From Belnapia moabensis DSM 16746 (lineage in GTDB: Bacteria > Pseudomonadota > Alphaproteobacteria > Acetobacterales > Acetobacteraceae), in contig NZ_JQKB01000026.1 in NCBI RefSeq assembly GCF_000745835.1, positions 1 through 63,943 of the forward strand: a stretch of 63,943 bases of DNA, in the 5' to 3' direction. Below the pieces are notes generated by a model. That model did not search any database, was not told where the DNA came from, and saw only the letters and a list, made by a program, of their open reading frames with translations. A program made the position numbers and the translations under genes. Below, one piece after another: positions 1 to 8,385 of this stretch. Numbering within the stretch: the stretch's first letter is position 1; every line of letters starts with the position of its first letter.

Positions 1-81
1 CTTCAAGGCATGGACCTCGCCCCGTAGCTCGTTGAGCTGGTCGCGCTGCTGCACAGGAAGGCCGATTGGATCCGAGGTCAT
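1..81 (-). CDS. Hypothetical protein, N-terminal fragment at window edge
   Basis: Only the first 27 codons are visible; the gene runs off the left edge. The peptide begins MTSDPIGLPVQQRDQ and continues with a charged, helix-prone stretch (QLNELRGEVHAL) that looks like the start of a coiled coil. The ATG is chosen because the reading frame, strand and direction agree with the neighbouring leftward genes of the integrated element; no clear Shine-Dalgarno sequence precedes it. About 205 bases of non-coding sequence separate it from the next gene upstream. No function can be assigned. Confidence 0.5.
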   Translation of the reverse strand, partial: MTSDPIGLPVQQRDQLNELRGEVHALK

Positions 82-286
82 GGGTGCCACCCGCTGCTGG
101 ATCCTAGCACCATCGGCCGAAGCACTGGCGAAAGGGAACCACCCAAATCAAGTCTACCTGCCGCTGCTGATGTCGCGGGCCAGAGCGGTGCTGGATGGAT
201 TCTGGGAGAGCCTCCAAAGCGGCCATGAGCCAGCCTCCCGATCACATGCGATAATGCCGAATTACCACAGGTTAGCCGGGCTTGCC

Positions 287-595
287 TCATTTGGGGTCCA
301 GCTCGCAGCCCCAGTCCTCGGCATCCAGATCCAGCTCGATGGACAGGCGGCGCATGGACTCTGCCATATCGACCCCAAGGGCCAGCGCATTCTCGGGGGC
401 TCTCGCCCGCCTAGCATCATCGGCGATCTTCCGGTGGTGCGCCTCGCAGGCCGGGCACATGCCTGCTACCAGTTCCATGAGCGGCATATCGTATGGGTCC
501 GACTGCCGAGCCCGCGGGATGCTGTGCGTCGCGGTGTGGCGGCAGACATGCTCCACCGTCACCTCCACCATCCGACGCCCAGGTTTCGCCCTCAT
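287..595 (-). CDS. Small Cys/His-rich protein of integrated element, putative zinc-binding
   Basis: 102 residues, not assigned to a named family. Two clusters of potential metal ligands are visible: VCRHTATH near residue 18 and CPACEAHH near residue 49, a spacing that could form one small zinc site. The C-terminal third is acidic and helical (LSIELDLDAEDWGCE). The ATG overlaps the stop of the upstream frameshifted gene as ATGA, which indicates translational coupling and supports this start over the longer open frame. It belongs to the leftward gene block with the RepA-like ATPase. Small zinc-ribbon-like proteins of this size are common on plasmids and ICEs, but the exact role here is unknown. 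Confidence 0.6.
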   Translation of the reverse strand: MRAKPGRRMVEVTVEHVCRHTATHSIPRARQSDPYDMPLMELVAGMCPACEAHHRKIADDARRARAPENALALGVDMAESMRRLSIELDLDAEDWGCELDPK

Positions 596-1126
596 TTCCG
601 CCCCTGTCTTCGCGGAGCCGGTTCCAGCCGCGGTGGTGGGGGTGGTGCCACCTTCGGCTTGAGAGCCCCTAACAGGCGCAACGTGGTGCCCTGCTGGACC
701 ACCTTCACCGGGCCGGCAGGCACCATGGGCACGATGGGCGCAGGCTTTGCCGCTGGCTTGCCCTCTGGAGCCTTCCGCGCCTTGACCGGGGGTTTGTAAC
801 CGCGGGCTTGGCCGCTGCCGCCTCAGCAGCCTTCCTGGCGGCCTTCTCGGCAGCCAGGCCTCACGGGCCGCGATCGCCGCCCGGAACTCCGCCGCCGCGT
901 CGCGGGGCGCAGGCCGGCAGAAGATCGGCTGGCCGAGCTTGTTGACCCCCACCAGCAGGGCGGTACCGGTGCGCTCATGCACGACCGGGCGCAGGTCGGG
1001 CTGCCCCTCCATGGGTTTGACCTGGGCCGCGGCGCGCTTGAGGCGGGAGTACTCGCCGAACTCCAGCACGATGCCCCAGCGCTGGAATAGGAAGCGGCAG
1101 AACTTCCACGAGTGCTTCTCCACCAC
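592..1126 (-). pseudogene. Element gene with two frameshifts in a Lys/Ala/Pro-rich tail
   Basis: A coherent product can be read only by changing frame twice. The N-terminal part (from a GTG at 1126 or 1123; VEKHSWKFCRFLFQRWG onward) is good coding sequence through an AAIAAREAW segment near 850. It then needs a +1 repair at about 847 to read AEKAARKAAEAAAAKPA, and another at about 800 to read KPPVKARKAPEGKPAAKP through to a stop at 592-594. That stop overlaps the next start as ATGA, so the downstream frame is clearly the native one. The repaired protein would be about 178 residues with a histone-H1-like tail. The lesions are either sequencing errors in repetitive GC-rich DNA or genuine decay. 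Family not recognised. Confidence 0.55.
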
Positions 1127-1155
1127 CCAGCCATCCCAGGGTAACTTGCGCTGTA

Positions 1156-1331
1156 TTGCGCCATATCTGCGCCATATCCCCTCCGGGCGGCGTTCTGCGC
1201 CATATGATCGCGCCAAATAATCCTTCTCCGAGGGAGAAGGATTATTTGGCGCATATGGCGCAAGCCGCCCTCCGGCCCCCGGTTTGCGCCATATTGCGCC
1301 ATATGCGCCCCGAACCCCCGGATATGGCGCA
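1156..1331. repeat. Iteron-like array of TGCGCCATAT (5 direct, 2 inverted copies)
   Basis: The 10-mer TGCGCCATAT occurs at 1157-1166, 1168-1177, 1196-1205, 1285-1294 and 1295-1304. Its reverse complement ATATGGCGCA occurs at 1253-1262 and 1322-1331. Two adjacent pairs are spaced 11 and 10 bp apart, about one helical turn. The array lies in the gap between the RepA-like ATPase stop (1344) and the next leftward gene. Clustered short repeats beside a replication ATPase resemble the iterons of plasmid and phage origins. A multi-copy binding site for an element-encoded regulator is the alternative. The repeat is seen directly; the origin role is inferred. Confidence 0.8.
1210..1252. repeat. 20-bp perfect inverted repeat (hairpin with GAG loop) inside the iteron array
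   Basis: GCGCCAAATAATCCTTCTCC at 1210-1229 is followed by a 3-nt GAG loop and its exact reverse complement at 1233-1252. The arms begin and end with GCGCC/GGCGC, the core of the flanking repeats, and their inner part is unusually A/T-rich for this genome. No run of T follows on either strand, so a simple intrinsic terminator is unlikely. A cruciform or single-strand initiation/transfer site, or an RNA hairpin closing the ATPase operon, are the likelier readings. Confidence 0.8.
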
Positions 1332-1343
1332 AACCCAACTGCA

Positions 1344-2615
1344 TCAGACCGGCCGCCGTTTGGAACGATCCACATACAGACCGGACACCGTTTTCCGCTG
1401 CCGGAAATCGGTGTAATCCCGCACAACTAGCAGGCCGTTCTTCAACCATGTGGTGACGATGGCTTTCGCTTGGGTTTCATTCATGCCGAAGCGCTTCACC
1501 AAGTAATGGCCAAGCCACCGGGTCGCCCCGCCCTTGGCGCTGTCGGTGTAGCGCTCGCCCGGACCAGGGCCGCCGCGATCGATCTCGGCCAGCGCCTCAT
1601 CGACATCTGCATCCGAAAGGCGCGAGAACACTCCGGCGGGCTGGTAGGACTCCACCGCCTGGACGTTATCCCCCTCGGGATAATCGGGAGTGCCATTGCC
1701 GAGGTTGACGCTCCGCAGGCGGAACCAGCGCGCCTTGTCCCGCGGCGACAGGTTGGCCTTGGCGCGGGCCAGCCGGGTGTAGAAGGGCCGCTCATCCTCC
1801 GCGATGCCGGAGGTCTCCGCGCTTTTCTCATCCATCGGCGTGAGGGTGTAGGTCACCCGCGAGGCGTTGGTGAGAGCGCCGGCACCGCGCGAGGCTTCGG
1901 CATTGCCGGCTTCGGCCCCTTTGCGGGTATGGTGCGAGGCCAGCATGCCGGCCCCGGTAGCCTGCCCGACCCGGATGATCGCCCGTGCCGCTTCGTTGAC
2001 CTGGGCGTTGTCGTTCTCGTTGAGCATGTGAGCATTGACCCAAGGGTCAACCATCACCGCGCCGATCCCCTCCTCGCGCACGAAGTGGGTCATCGCCTCC
2101 TCATCGGGGTAGACCATCTCGCCCGAACTCAGCGCGGCGAGCACCAGAGGCGCCTCCCGGCCGAACCGCACGAAGACCCGGCCCCGCAACTCGTCCACAT
2201 CCAAGCGGTGGTGCCGGGCGAAGGCCGCCGTCAGCCGGTCGAACTCGTCTTCCGAATCCTCCAGCGAGCAGAACAGCACCCGGCAGCCGCCGGCATGCAC
2301 GCGATCGCCGAGCAGTGGGCGGTTGCACGCCAGGGAGAGGCCGATTCCCATCGTCAGGGAGGTCTTCCCGACGCCGCCGGGAGCGGCCAAGACGGTGAGG
2401 TACCGCCGCAGCAGCAGGTCGCCATAGAGCCACTGCCGGGGCGGGATGCTCCCCGGATCGGGGAAGCGCGCCGGGCGGAACAGGGTGCTCCCAGCACCGC
2501 CCGGATGGACGGTGAAGGGGTTCTGCTTGCGGGGCTCGGGCTCCTCCCAGTACTCCGGGTTCGCCCGCTCGGGGTGAGGGGAGGCGCGAAAAGCGGCGAG
2601 TTCCTCCTCGGTCAT
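1344..2615 (-). CDS. RepA-like AAA-family ATPase (AAA_25 type) of integrated element
   Basis: 423 residues. A RecA-fold ATPase core is visible: Walker A AAPGGVGKTSL near residue 87, a Walker B-like strand AVMVDPWV, and a following LASHHTRKG segment typical of the RepA/AAA_25 helicase-like proteins found on plasmids, prophages and ICEs. The C-terminal 120 residues (ATRWLGHYLVKRFGM, TTWLKNGLLVVRDY) look like a winged-helix DNA-binding module. The ATG at 2615 gives an ATGA overlap with the upstream gene stop and starts MTEEELAAFRASPH; a longer upstream frame exists but is poor coding sequence. Family knowledge suggests a replication or primase-loading role. The adjacent repeat array supports replication, but a regulatory ATPase cannot be excluded. 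Confidence 0.8.
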   Translation of the reverse strand: MTEEELAAFRASPHPERANPEYWEEPEPRKQNPFTVHPGGAGSTLFRPARFPDPGSIPPRQWLYGDLLLRRYLTVLAAPGGVGKTSLTMGIGLSLACNRPLLGDRVHAGGCRVLFCSLEDSEDEFDRLTAAFARHHRLDVDELRGRVFVRFGREAPLVLAALSSGEMVYPDEEAMTHFVREEGIGAVMVDPWVNAHMLNENDNAQVNEAARAIIRVGQATGAGMLASHHTRKGAEAGNAEASRGAGALTNASRVTYTLTPMDEKSAETSGIAEDERPFYTRLARAKANLSPRDKARWFRLRSVNLGNGTPDYPEGDNVQAVESYQPAGVFSRLSDADVDEALAEIDRGGPGPGERYTDSAKGGATRWLGHYLVKRFGMNETQAKAIVTTWLKNGLLVVRDYTDFRQRKTVSGLYVDRSKRRPV

Positions 2616-3100
2616 GCTGCCCTCCGCGACCCGGAGGTCTCGGCCCGCTGCCAACGGAGCAAACGCTCCGCCGCCTCGTGGGGCTCGATCCCCAGGCGGA
2701 AGGCCACCAGCCCGGCCAGCGTGCCGCCCTGGACGGTCTCGCTGTGGACCTGCCGCCAGCCGGTCCACCAGACCCGGCGCAGCCGCCAGTAGCCGGTCCG
2801 CCGGTCGATCAACGCCCCGACGCTCGGCCAGGTATTGCCGAACAGGGACACGAAGCCACTCTGGCTCTCCGGCCACCAGATCAGCTCGCCGGGGCGCCAG
2901 TCATGGCAATGCAGCGGCAGGTCGATCCACCGCATCACCACCGGGAGGCGGGCCAGACCGATGCGGTCCCAGGCGGTCAGGGTAGGGCGGTCCTCCGCCC
3001 GTGCCATCGAGGCCCGAATCCAGTCGTCCGGGCCGTTCAGCGGTGTGTCGCCCCGATCCGCATCTGGATCGTCAACGTAATGGACAGGTTCGTCGTGCAT
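2612..3100 (-). CDS. Hypothetical protein of integrated element
   Basis: About 162 residues with many tryptophans (WRPGELIWWPE, YWRLRRVWWTGWRQ), suggesting a compact aromatic-rich fold. It is the first gene of the leftward block and overlaps the ATPase start by 4 bases, so the two are probably made together. The ATG at 3100 is preferred; an in-frame TTG at 3109 is possible but would place the start inside the dyad that seems to regulate the operon. No family is recognised. Co-occurrence with a RepA-like ATPase suggests a replication or element-maintenance accessory role (inference). Confidence 0.6.
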   Translation of the reverse strand: MHDEPVHYVDDPDADRGDTPLNGPDDWIRASMARAEDRPTLTAWDRIGLARLPVVMRWIDLPLHCHDWRPGELIWWPESQSGFVSLFGNTWPSVGALIDRRTGYWRLRRVWWTGWRQVHSETVQGGTLAGLVAFRLGIEPHEAAERLLRWQRAETSGSRRAA

Positions 3101-3106
3101 GACAGC

Positions 3107-3218
3107 CAACTCACATCGAGTTGCGGAATCGATGTGTTGAAAGCGCAGCGATCTTCTGCCATAAGCGGGACGAGTGCTAGTTTTCCCGCGTGTGGAGAAG
3201 TCTGCACCTTCAACACAC
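3107..3218 (-). promoter_or_regulatory. Nested dyad symmetries upstream of the element operon
   Basis: Three inverted repeats sit just before the first element gene: CAACTC-N5-GAGTTG (3107-3123), CACATCGA-N9-TCGATGTG (3112-3136), and the arms TGTGTTGAA (3133-3141) and TTCAACACA (3209-3217). Overlapping dyads of this spacing at the 5' end of a phage or plasmid operon are typical operators for a dimeric repressor. No repressor gene is in the window, and no convincing -10/-35 pair could be set. Confidence 0.45.
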
Positions 3219-3242
3219 CACAGTTCAGACGACGCCTACGGA

Positions 3243-3276
3243 CCCTCCCTTCCCCAAGGGAGGGTTTCGGCGTTTT
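3243..3276 (+). terminator. Rho-independent terminator-like hairpin at element boundary
   Basis: CCCTCCCTT, a CCCC loop and AAGGGAGGG form a 9-bp perfect stem (3243-3264), followed by TTTCGGCGTTTT. It lies between the element operon and the truncated MFS gene. On the plus strand it could stop transcription arriving from the element side. Confidence 0.6.
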
Positions 3277-3294
3277 AGGGGACTCGTCAGCTAA

Positions 3295-3867
3295 ACGGCA
3301 TGGGGCTATCTCCCGGTTGGACCGTTCACAACTCCTCTAGCAACGACCTGCGCCATCCTCCCCGGATGGGGCGTGACGGGGACGGTGCTGACCGCCGTAC
3401 AATCGACCCTCGCCGCGGGCGGCCAGCCGCTCGCCGGCCCCTTCGCCGCCTGCGGCATGATGCTGATCGGCGTCATCGCCCAGCGCGGCTTCCGCCACGT
3501 CGCGCCGCGGCGGGCGGTGCGGATCGGCCTCGGCATCCTGCTGCTCGGCGCCGGGCTGACCTTCCTCGGCGCGACGGGGGCCGGGATGGCGCCGCTCCTG
3601 CTCGGCGGCGCCGTGGTCGGCATCGGCACCTATGGCTTCGTCTATCCCGGCGGTCTCGCCGCGGTGGCCGAGGCCGCCTCGGGCGAGGAGCGGGCGCGCG
3701 CCGTCGCCGGCTATTTCGTCCTCGCCCATCTGGGCTTCGGCGCGGTGCCGCTGCTGGTCGGCCTGGCGATCGATACCTTTTGCGCCGGGCCCGCCCTGGC
3801 GGGGAGCTGGCTGGCCTTGCTCCTCGCTGCCTGTCTGCTGTGGTGGATTACTTTTCGCAGCGAATGA
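3295..3867 (+). pseudogene. MFS transporter remnant (C-terminal part only)
   Basis: Only the last five or so membrane segments of a 12-segment major facilitator are present. Recognisable are a cytoplasmic loop RGFRHVAPRRAVRIG between two hydrophobic helices, then ILLLGAGLTFLGA, LLLGGAVVGIGTYGFV, the GEERARAVAGYFVLAHLG stretch, and a last helix ending WWITFRSE. The open frame begins after a TAA at 3292, and the coding character becomes convincing around 3349 (CAILPGWGVTGTVL). A GTG at 3373 could start a short protein, but half an MFS domain is unlikely to work. The missing 5' half together with the adjoining element block suggests disruption by integration or a deletion. The 3' end overlaps the convergent protease gene by 20 bases. 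Confidence 0.65.
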
Positions 3868-4912
3868 AGAGCGTGCTGCGGTTGGCGATCTCGCCGACAT
3901 CGGCCGCGCCGCGTTCCGGCCCGCTGCTCTCCGCCACCTGCGGATTGAGGCCCGCACGACGAAGGAAGACCTGCGCCGCCTCCCCCTTCACCGCGAAATT
4001 GATGTTCTGCGCGATATCCCCGGTGACACGGGCGATGCGCTGCGCATTCAGCTTCGAGACGACGACGCCGAGGATATTGCCATGCATGTCGAGCAGCGGC
4101 CCACCCGAGTTGCCCGGCTGCACCTCGGCGCTGATCTGGTACTGGTTGCGGTTGTCGGCGAGGCCGGCGAGCCCGTTGACCTCCCCCCGCGTCAGCTTGG
4201 CATCGGAGGAGAGCAGCCCCGCCAGCGGGAAGCCATAGGCGACGACGCCATCGCCCCGCCGCACCGCCGGCCCGCTGCGGAAGGGCAGCGCCGGCCCCGG
4301 CAGCCCCGGCACCGCGAGCAGGGCAAGGTCGAGATCGTTGTCCACCCGCGCCGGCGGCACTGCGGCAAGCCAGCGCCCATCCGGCGCGCGCATGACGATG
4401 CGGTCGCAGCCATTCACCACATGCTGGTTGGTCAGCACCCGGTCGGGCGCGACGAGGAAGCCGCTGCCGGTCGAGACGTTGCGGGCATTCTGGTTCGGCC
4501 GCTGCTGCGGCACGTTGGAAGGCGGCGGCACCACCGCAGCGGTGGCCGGCGCCGGCTTGCCCGAGGGCAGCGGCCGGCTCGCCGCCTCCAACGCCAGCTC
4601 GCGGTTGGCGCAGATGTCCTGGTTCTGCAGCATCGCCTCCCGCCCATCCTCCAGCACCAGGCGGAGGTCGAAGCGGCAGCCGGCAGCCTCGGCCGGGTTG
4701 ACGCGGAAGCCGCCGCCCGGCGCCAGCGGCCGGTCGGGCGAGAGCAGGTTGCGCCCCCAGTCGCTCGCCGCGCCGCGCGGCGTGCGGACGGCGTTCAGCT
4801 CCTTCGCCGGCACGCCGGTGCGGTTCACCACATGGAAGGGCTGTCCCTGGGCCAAGGCAGCGCCCGGCAGGAGCAGGAGGAGGAGCAGCGCGAGGCGGAA
4901 CGGGTGCGGCAT
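3848..4912 (-). CDS. Secreted trypsin-like serine protease (S1C/DegP-like core)
   Basis: 354 residues. The N-terminus is a signal peptide (LLLLLLLPGAALAQG), so the enzyme should act in the periplasm. A catalytic triad typical of trypsin-like peptidases is visible: His in LTNQHVV near residue 162, Asp in NDLDLALL near 193, and Ser in QPGNSGGPL near 270. No PDZ domain follows, unlike classic DegP/HtrA proteins, and a roughly 130-residue N-terminal region with two cysteines precedes the protease fold. The chosen ATG opens directly into the signal peptide; an upstream in-frame ATG would add a non-signal stretch. It is transcribed leftward and ends inside the MFS remnant. The substrate is unknown. 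Confidence 0.85.
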   Translation of the reverse strand: MPHPFRLALLLLLLLPGAALAQGQPFHVVNRTGVPAKELNAVRTPRGAASDWGRNLLSPDRPLAPGGGFRVNPAEAAGCRFDLRLVLEDGREAMLQNQDICANRELALEAASRPLPSGKPAPATAAVVPPPSNVPQQRPNQNARNVSTGSGFLVAPDRVLTNQHVVNGCDRIVMRAPDGRWLAAVPPARVDNDLDLALLAVPGLPGPALPFRSGPAVRRGDGVVAYGFPLAGLLSSDAKLTRGEVNGLAGLADNRNQYQISAEVQPGNSGGPLLDMHGNILGVVVSKLNAQRIARVTGDIAQNINFAVKGEAAQVFLRRAGLNPQVAESSGPERGAADVGEIANRSTLFIRCEK

Positions 4913-4944
4913 GGCTGGGGATGTCGGACGCGGGCGCGGCATAG

Positions 4945-5662
4945 TCAATCGCCCGGGGCGTGACGCCGCAGCGCCTCGGCCAGCGCCCCCACCATCGCCG
5001 CCGCGGCGGCCGCCCCGCGCGCGCCCATCGGCTGCGGCACCGCCTGCCAGCGGCCGGGGAAGGCGGCCTCCAGCTCCGCCCGCAGCACCCGCGCCACGCC
5101 AAGGCCGATCACCACCACCCCCGCCGGCCCGAGCGCCGGCAGCACCACGCCATGATGCAGCCGCCAGCTCTCCCGCAGCGCCGCGCCGTAAGCCGCCGGC
5201 GACACCCGCGCCCCGCCCGGCCCGGCGACCGCCACCAGCGAGGCATCGGTCAGCCAGACCCCCCTTCGCCGCAGCCGCTCCAGCAAGGCGAGCTTGGCAG
5301 CAAGCCGCGCCTCCACCGCCGGGAAGGCCGCGCGGGTCGGCGCCGTGCTGCCCTCGGCCGCGGCAAGCAGGCGCCAGTATTGCGGCGTCCCTGCATTGCG
5401 GGCCACCGCGGGCGCCAGCGAAGGCTCGCCATAGGCCGGGCAATAGAGATGCCGCACGAAGCCCGCCACCATCGGCCAGCCCGGCGCCGGCCCCAGCGGC
5501 ACCGCCAGCTCCTCCGCCGAGCCCGCCATATGGCTCTCAGCCAGCAGCAGCAGGCGAAGCCGCTCCGGCCGCCAAGCCTGGCGCCAGGCCTCGACGGCGA
5601 TGGCAACCTCTGGCGGTTCCAGCCCTTGACCCTCCCATTGTGGGAGGCCCCATATCCCCGCC

Positions 5663-5664
<2 letters not shown>
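4945..5664 (-). CDS. Conserved hypothetical protein divergent from copA
   Basis: 239 residues, no family recognised. Visible features are RLRLLLLAESHMAG near residue 38, an Ala/Arg-rich middle (EARLAAKLALLERLRRRGVWL) and GPAGVVVIGLGVARVL near the C-terminus. The first motif and overall size recall uracil-DNA-glycosylase-like folds, but no catalytic signature can be confirmed. Its ATG is on the opposite strand of the same CATG that carries the copA start, and a GGGAGGGG Shine-Dalgarno-like sequence lies 10 bases upstream of it, inside copA. The copA promoter therefore lies within this gene. A start further in is possible, but no better codon is obvious. Confidence 0.6.
5626..5656 (+). promoter_or_regulatory. 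CueR-type copper-responsive promoter of copA
   Basis: A -35 TTGACC (5626-5631) and a -10 CATATC (5651-5656) are separated by 19 bp, the lengthened spacer of MerR-family promoters. The spacer contains the dyad CCTCCC-ATTGT-GGGAGG. This matches the architecture of the E. coli copA promoter (TTGACC, CCTTCC-type dyad, 19-bp spacer). The cueR gene is in the operon it would control. The predicted transcription start, 6-7 bases after the -10, falls on or beside the A of the copA ATG at 5663, which implies a leaderless mRNA. Confidence 0.8.
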
Positions 5665-7983
<2,319 letters not shown>

Positions 7984-7987
<4 letters not shown>

Positions 7988-8385
7988 CCGCTAGCATCGG
8001 CGAGGCCGCCCGCGCCTCCGGCGTCTCGGAGAAGATGATCCGCCACTATGAGTCGATCGGCCTGCTCCGCCCCGCCCGCGAGGCGAACGGCTACCGCCGC
8101 TACGCCGAGGCCGACATCGCCGTGCTGCGTTTCATCCGCCACGCCCGCGACCTCGCCTTCCCGCTGGAGGAGGTGCGGCGCCTGCTCGCCCTCTGGCAGG
8201 ACCGGGGCCGGGCCAGCGCCGAGGTCCGCGCCATCGCCCTCGCCCATGTCGCCGCGCTGGAGGAGAAGGCCGAAAGCCTCCGCCGCATGGCCGAGAGCCT
8301 CCGTCACCTGGCCGCGCACTGCCACGGCGATGCCCGGCCCGACTGCCCCATCCTCGATGGTCTGGAAGGAAAGCACCCATGTTGA
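7984..8385 (+). CDS. cueR: Copper-sensing MerR-family regulator CueR
   Basis: 133 residues. An N-terminal winged helix-turn-helix ([24 protein letters not shown]) is followed by the dimerisation helix and a C-terminal metal loop. [15 protein letters not shown] holds the two cysteines with the spacing of the Cu(I)-binding pair of CueR. It would bind the dyad upstream of copA and activate when copper is bound. The ATG at 7984 overlaps the copA stop by 4 bases; an in-frame GTG at 7975 is less likely. Placing the regulator inside the operon, between pump and chaperone, gives autoregulation. Its end overlaps the copZ start. Confidence 0.93.

Follow-up and report, generated by a model that had tools for sequence, protein, structure and literature searches.

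The window analysed here comprises positions 1 to 63,943 of contig NZ_JQKB01000026.1 (contig C26 below; assembly GCF_000745835.1) of the alphaproteobacterium Belnapia moabensis DSM 16746 (Acetobacteraceae), and the subject is a cluster of short repeats around a hairpin that lies near its start, next to the gene of a replication-type helicase. An earlier reading of the bare sequence, referred to as the original prediction, had proposed this cluster as the candidate origin of an integrated element. The features at the centre of the analysis are:

1156 to 1331, no strand assigned: iteron array with nine TGGCGC cores, seven of which belong to exact copies of TGCGCCATAT; proposed replication origin
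1210 to 1252, no strand assigned: central hairpin with a perfect 20-bp stem and a 3-nt loop, the feet of which form an inverted pair of the iteron core
1344 to 2615, minus strand: gene of a RepA-type helicase (AAA_25), 423 amino acids (aa) from the ATG at 2615, with a match to phrog_25693
1356 to 1613, minus strand: C-terminal domain of the helicase, covering residues 335-420; a winged helix in the model and proposed to bind the iterons
1392 to 1394, minus strand: codon of K408, the residue with which the second wing strand starts and which co-varies with the two central iteron bases

The seven repeat copies that had been reported within 176 bases are recovered by an exact search, with TGCGCCATAT on the plus strand at 1157, 1168, 1196, 1285 and 1295 and on the minus strand at 1253 and 1322 (1157-1331 in total). 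The two pairs described as spaced by one helical turn measure 11 bp (1157/1168) and 10 bp (1285/1295), and the perfect stem is present as an inverted repeat of 1210-1229 with 1233-1252. The shorter core occurs nine times, as GCGCCA at 1158, 1169, 1197, 1210, 1286 and 1296 and as TGGCGC at 1247, 1256 and 1325; relative to the helicase gene, six of these are direct and three inverted, and the hairpin feet are formed by the two, at 1210 and 1247, that lie beyond the seven TGCGCCATAT copies. The most frequent 7-mer in the 260 bp 3' of the ATPase stop is found eight times, a count reached by 0 of 200 dinucleotide shuffles and by 0 of 70 other segments of the first 10 kb. In single-stranded form, 206 nt across the array fold with a z-score of -9.9 against shuffles.

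Across the genome (6.73 Mb, 282 contigs) there are 18 exact TGCGCCATAT 10-mers, seven of them in the array, while the reversed control occurs twice; the only three same-orientation pairs at most 30 nt apart are all located within the array. A scattered mobile repeat was rejected on these counts, and the genome-wide scatter that the original prediction had named as speaking against an origin is not observed. A known RNA family was rejected as well, since the five Rfam matches up to E 1 all lie below the gathering score. No DNA similarity to phage records was found for 1000-3342. The non-coding gap in which the array was said to sit is only probable: two minus-strand frames remain open across the repeats.

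The helicase matches PF13481 (AAA_25) with an E-value of 3.8e-28 and, over residues 50-421, the phage family phrog_25693. Its body matches the RecA folds of RSF1010 RepA and of DnaB-type helicases, in agreement with a RepA fold, and P79, G80, G81, G83 and K84 of the Walker A region are invariant across 40 aligned sequences. With an RSF1010 RepA-type AAA_25 domain and its P-loop, the protein is, by family membership, a possible hexameric 5'-3' helicase. Some 13 bp separate the stop codon of this gene from the array, in accordance with the claim that the latter lies directly downstream of a replication-type ATPase. Direct repeats about one helical turn apart stand beside a replication gene, as in iteron origins, and directly downstream of a helicase gene, as in origins of the Staphylococcus aureus pathogenicity island (SaPI) type. 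The C-terminal domain of the helicase is predicted to be a winged helix: modelled alone, it reaches a predicted local distance difference test (pLDDT) score of 93, and it shows weak matches to winged-helix proteins, the best PDB match by domain profile being FeoC (E 0.0019).

The recurrence of such arrays was assessed in several collections of relatives. The helicase is present in 53 of 397 genomes of the family (E 1e-20), and 40 of these matches (L042-L081) were taken together with their surroundings. Arrays were called by a 7-mer count in the 260 bp after the helicase stop that was reached in at most 2 of 200 shuffles, and by this measure an array lies directly 3' of the helicase gene in 27 of the 40 relatives; a lack of conserved arrays in relatives, the other outcome that had been named as unfavourable, is therefore not what is seen. 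The window helicase alone, used as a query, returned no close relatives in genome_contigs or viral_contigs. A search with the alignment gave 196 candidate relatives among genomes and 407 among viral contigs; the best 80 of each were collected, the former as named genome loci, and 77 and 79 of them, respectively, are testable. At a threshold of at most 1 in 100 shuffles, arrays follow the helicase in 53 of the 77 genome loci, many of which belong to the same genomes as the first 40 relatives, and in 62 of the 79 viral contigs; the helicase gene is adjacent in every locus by way of selection. Where the stretch is long enough, the context is phage-like, with RecT-like, RusA-like, single-stranded DNA-binding protein (SSB), terminase and portal genes in L042 and with terminase and portal genes in L043 and L065. 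Two plasmid relatives, L040 (pR24_3) and L041 (pVL1_6), have a toprim-domain gene upstream of the helicase, and pVL1_6 also carries a phage tape-measure gene.

A compact cassette is seen in 29 of the loci L042-L081 (e.g. L074:8021-11293), in which an XRE regulator (22/29), a small gene F3 whose function is not known (22/29), the helicase, the array and a DUF6362 gene follow one another. In 28 of these 29 loci the DUF6362 frame is open back across the array to the helicase stop. Among the gaps of 8-14 bp in these loci, 69 of 93 correspond to an iteron pitch of 12 bp, compared with 31 of 74 in viral contigs and 15 of 52 in other loci; such a pitch is divisible by three, which gives the impression of an origin within a gene. 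No mention of DUF6362 was found in the open-access literature. Because terminase or portal families occur in the fetched stretch of only three DUF6362-type loci (L065, L074 and L075), many of these loci may be phage remnants or domesticated modules that retain an intact origin. Next to one cassette (L056:4267-6061), an AAA_21 ATPase (putative AbiEii according to the Pfam note) and a 208-aa protein without known function are possibly a defence pair.

The layout of the array is shared well beyond the window. The repeat varies between elements and mostly fits YG-NN-GCA, and stem sequence and iterons vary in concert. Among 85 non-redundant loci, which were chosen for a clear core class and therefore do not represent a random sample, 188 of 437 gaps between successive direct copies measure 11-12 bp, and the feet of the best hairpin consist of an inverted core on the left and a direct core on the right in 63 loci. 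At least two direct copies flank the hairpin on each side in 57 loci, and a hairpin score of at least 10 is reached in 49 loci versus 1 of the 85 shuffled copies.

This natural variation allows the protein to be compared with the repeat. From 199 regions, 111 with a clear class of the central dinucleotide NN were retained, yielding 75 non-redundant proteins. Among these, mutual information with the iteron NN, evaluated by within-cluster permutation, places K408 first (z 14.4), followed by a column with z 5.1. A larger set comprises 157 non-redundant proteins, 78 of them with an iteron class. Elements with YGGCGC carry K at residue 408 in 49 cases and H in one (n=50), and elements with a non-G first base of NN carry K in 0 of 13. 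For a test by independent pairs, a tree was built from the helicase part alone, and pairs that differ in the first base were drawn from separate starred branches: residue 408 changes in the same way in 6.4 of 8 pairs, in the opposite way in 0 and not at all in 1.6. When 215 testable columns of 367 were scored over 85 rows, K408 came first with 7.47 of 9 and no opposite pair, ahead of a column with a net 2.87. A check on new data began with 56 viral loci; after removal of 30 that the first set already contained and of 2 that lack downstream DNA, the remaining 24 reduce to 20 non-redundant loci. A strict class call fits in 7 of 7 cases (GC with K in four, TA with R in three), with 13 of the 20 loci lacking such a call, and a looser call fits in 14 of 14, with 6 of the 20 ambiguous.

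A related pattern is visible between close relatives. The helicases of L072 and L074 differ by 5 substitutions in residues 15-335 and by 19 in residues 336-396, and the differences include K to R at residue 408, together with a change of the repeat from YGGCGC to YGACGC. In the comparison of L072 with L074 and L066, helicase bodies are nearly identical and the C-terminal domain has diverged with a new iteron class, which looks like domain exchange or a rapid divergence of specificity. Further contacts proposed for the C-terminal domain (K361, D358 and S359 with bases -2, -1 and +7) were set aside, as the noise of the per-base scans is too high to claim them.

One boundary of the element that carries the array can be mapped in the window. 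The features beyond the helicase and the array are:

3337 to 3343, no strand assigned: right junction of the element in a major facilitator superfamily (MFS) gene; its 6 bp ACGACC recur at the left junction on contig C54
3373 to 3867, plus strand: C-terminal half of the interrupted MFS transporter gene, assigned by homology to congeners
2612 to 3100, minus strand: 162-aa open reading frame (ORF) upstream of the helicase gene, no family match
290 to 1126, minus strand: ORF on the far side of the array, without family match and of unsure coding status

Homology to the intact MFS genes of five congeners starts at 3337-3343. The fragment in the window scores 29.1 bits, below the Pfam cut-off of 33.4, compared with 67.4 bits for an intact congener copy, and the remaining half of the gene is located on C54. 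Directly inside the C54 junction lies the ORF of a large serine recombinase (L100:5655-7625, minus strand) with Resolvase (PF00239, 1.6e-15), Recombinase (PF07508, 8.5e-10) and zinc-ribbon (PF13408, 2e-5, at its cut-off) domains. The ACGACC common to both junctions was spotted by eye, and no direct repeat of at least 12 bp was found at the two element junctions. These junctions stand on separate contigs, C26 and C54, and the middle of the element is not assembled. A search of seven congeners for the helicase at E 1e-20 returned none. On account of the split MFS gene, the recombinase inside the C54 junction and the congeners in which no helicase was found, window positions 1-3343 probably represent one end of an element that a serine recombinase has integrated. 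Past the recombinase, C54:1-7711 (L100) contains ORFs that resemble, by eye, insertion sequence (IS) transposases up to the contig end. Beside the insertion site, 3854-8382 of the window encodes a trypsin-like peptidase, a heavy-metal P-type ATPase with two HMA domains and a MerR-type regulator. The 162-aa ORF occupies the place of a 118-155-aa gene, whose function is not known, in relatives; no family match, including to a possible RepC or RepB, was obtained for the ORFs neighbouring the helicase and the array in this element cut by the contig end.

As judged from these comparisons, the repeat-and-hairpin cluster is very probably a replication start site, and the co-variation suggests that the neighbouring helicase itself recognises the repeats through an additional DNA-reading domain. 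With good confidence, the array can be regarded as the iteron-type origin of an integrative element of phage-like character, read by the neighbouring helicase via its predicted C-terminal winged helix. The proposal of an origin of an integrated element is supported by the mapping of both ends to a split MFS gene, one of them with a large serine recombinase on its inner side, by arrays after the same helicase gene in relatives and viral contigs, including phage regions with terminase and portal genes, and by a helicase residue that co-varies with the repeat. Temperate phages and integrative elements are the best reading of what carries such origins.

Several observations weigh against this interpretation. 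The array test is failed by 13 of the 40 relatives (L058, L061-L065, L070, L071 and L077-L081); several of L058, L061-L065, L070 and L071 retain, by eye, the hairpin and imperfect cores, and L077-L081 have no array right after the helicase, with a repeat cluster about 300-500 bp further on in L078, L080 and L081. The two plasmid relatives fail as well, their counts being reached in 24 and 3 of 200 shuffles. The array does not stand out as AT-rich and shows no clear opening region of this kind: its AT content is 0.386, compared with 0.335 in 1-3340, and 32 of 159 nearby segments are as AT-rich. The isolated C-terminal domain has no PDB match at E <= 0.001 (best 0.045). With respect to the co-variation, 79 of the 157 non-redundant proteins have no callable iteron class and were left out, and the YGGA and YGGG elements break the rule (K in 3 of 15), the alignment of the wing being gapped in these distant elements. 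K408 was chosen by scanning, and per-base scans give z up to 11.5 at helicase columns (base -3) and 7.4 (base Y), for which reason mutual information alone is not trustworthy here; the weight of the K408 claim rests on the tree test and the new loci. The latter, where strictly called, are 64-83% identical to their nearest earlier relative and thus count as related loci, not as independent families.

Among other explanations, the array could be an origin whose iterons are bound by another protein of the element, such as the 162-aa gene product, or by a host factor, in which case the winged helix would make contact with that protein or, non-specifically, with DNA. An initiator could be encoded by the gene upstream of the helicase, which belongs to no known family, and in RSF1010 the tasks are divided between RepC and RepA, as stated in PMC4234260. 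This division of labour is nevertheless considered rather unlikely for the window: in the tree test, the link between K408 and the iteron core stands far above that of the next best column, and between L072 and L074 the C-terminal domain has diverged along with the iteron.

A partition site (parS-like centromere) or an operator cluster that regulates early genes is a clearly improbable function of the array. Iteron arrays often regulate their own rep gene as well, which would suit an operator. In some mycobacteriophages, a parS of five direct repeats is described directly downstream of repA (PMC7157519). Yet the repeats track a helicase residue, and no promoter-like site was found in 1-3400; a ParA-type gene is annotated in one plasmid relative (L041), and none was noticed beside the array elsewhere, where no family search for ParA or ParB was made. 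A packaging (pac/cos) signal read by the terminase, with terminase genes standing within a few kb after the array in L043, L055 and L065, is still harder to credit, given that in L042 the array is separated from the terminase gene by the SSB gene and some eleven others and that terminase or portal families are seen in only 3 of the 29 DUF6362-type loci. That the hairpin, which does lie just past a stop codon, is a transcription terminator only and the repeats are intergenic mobile repeats has next to no likelihood, as no terminator-like site (T run) was found in 1-3400, the genome holds no other same-orientation pair, and stem and iterons change together between elements.

Recognition of the array by the helicase, which had been raised in the original prediction, is therefore kept as the favoured mechanism. 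The array, its position, its recurrence in phage elements and the co-variation of one wing residue with the core come from comparison, and on this basis the following course can be envisaged. Helicase copies would bind the direct iterons, which lie about one helical turn apart, on both sides of the hairpin through the C-terminal winged helix. Excision of the element is likewise an assumed part of this course. The hairpin with its inverted iterons would be opened or extruded and yield a single strand, on which the RecA-fold ring would be placed in a self-loading step, and the ring would then unwind, presumably outward, for the host replisome. A more specific version, for which the chances appear about even, states that the RecA-fold (RepA/DnaB-like) ring helicase is its own origin-recognition protein, that residue 408 (K, R or N) sets much of the choice of the central bases and that the inverted-iteron hairpin is the entry point. 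As a winged helix on the ring would read the iterons and the hairpin would provide entry, a separate initiator or loader would not be needed in this proposed reading.

For the recognition of an origin, RepA/DnaB-type ring helicases are generally considered dependent on other proteins. In the account given in PMC8965321, replication helicases are characterised as structure- rather than sequence-specific in the way they recognise their substrates. If the favoured mechanism is true, a helicase that reads its own origin would constitute a compact, self-contained initiation module in many alphaproteobacterial phages, and the natural variation of repeat and protein would offer a ready-made test of how such a module shifts its specificity. 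The origins of many unstudied prophages would become predictable from sequence, and the residue-408 rule would predict both origins and iteron class across alphaproteobacterial temperate phages.

The original prediction had remarked that the layout is not a standard named origin type, and a comparison with known systems agrees. The open-access literature yielded no description of such an arrangement, subscription papers lying outside this coverage. In phage lambda, the iterons of ori are located within the O gene, whose product is no helicase; a phage iteron origin tied to a replication gene, as proposed for the window, is the common feature, whereas the iterons in the window stand outside the gene and the protein is a helicase. 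The SaPI Rep helicase is of another class, AAA+ or superfamily 3 (SF3)-like, and P4 alpha carries a Toprim primase, its helicase being SF3. It is this class that sets SaPI Rep apart from the body found here, which is RecA-fold as in RSF1010 RepA, and the window array differs additionally by a central hairpin with iteron feet between direct iterons. In contrast to P4 alpha, one chain holds only helicase and predicted winged helix here, and no recognised primase is present in the window.

The likenesses are nonetheless close. SaPI Rep is reported to recognise, by its C-terminal domain, iterons directly downstream of its own gene (Ubeda 2007, as cited in PMC7581432); a short-repeat origin, proposed in the case of the window, directly downstream of the helicase gene in an integrated, phage-related element is common to both, and recognition by the helicase C-terminal domain would be shared in the proposed mechanism. 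P4 alpha binds origin repeats through a winged helix (PMC4234260) and likewise combines this domain with a helicase in one protein. The iterons of RSF1010 (IncQ) are read by the separate protein RepC according to the same source, whereas the helicase here has an extra C-terminal domain beyond the RepA-aligned part. ORF904 of pRN1 has a C-terminal winged helix and a stem-loop origin directly downstream of its gene (PMC4234260), an arrangement that resembles the one proposed here; as portrayed there, pRN1 has an archaeo-eukaryotic primase and an SF3 helicase and is without iterons. The system in the window, as proposed, works like SaPI Rep and P4 alpha but with the RepA body of RSF1010, and it is therefore not filed as a member of those families.
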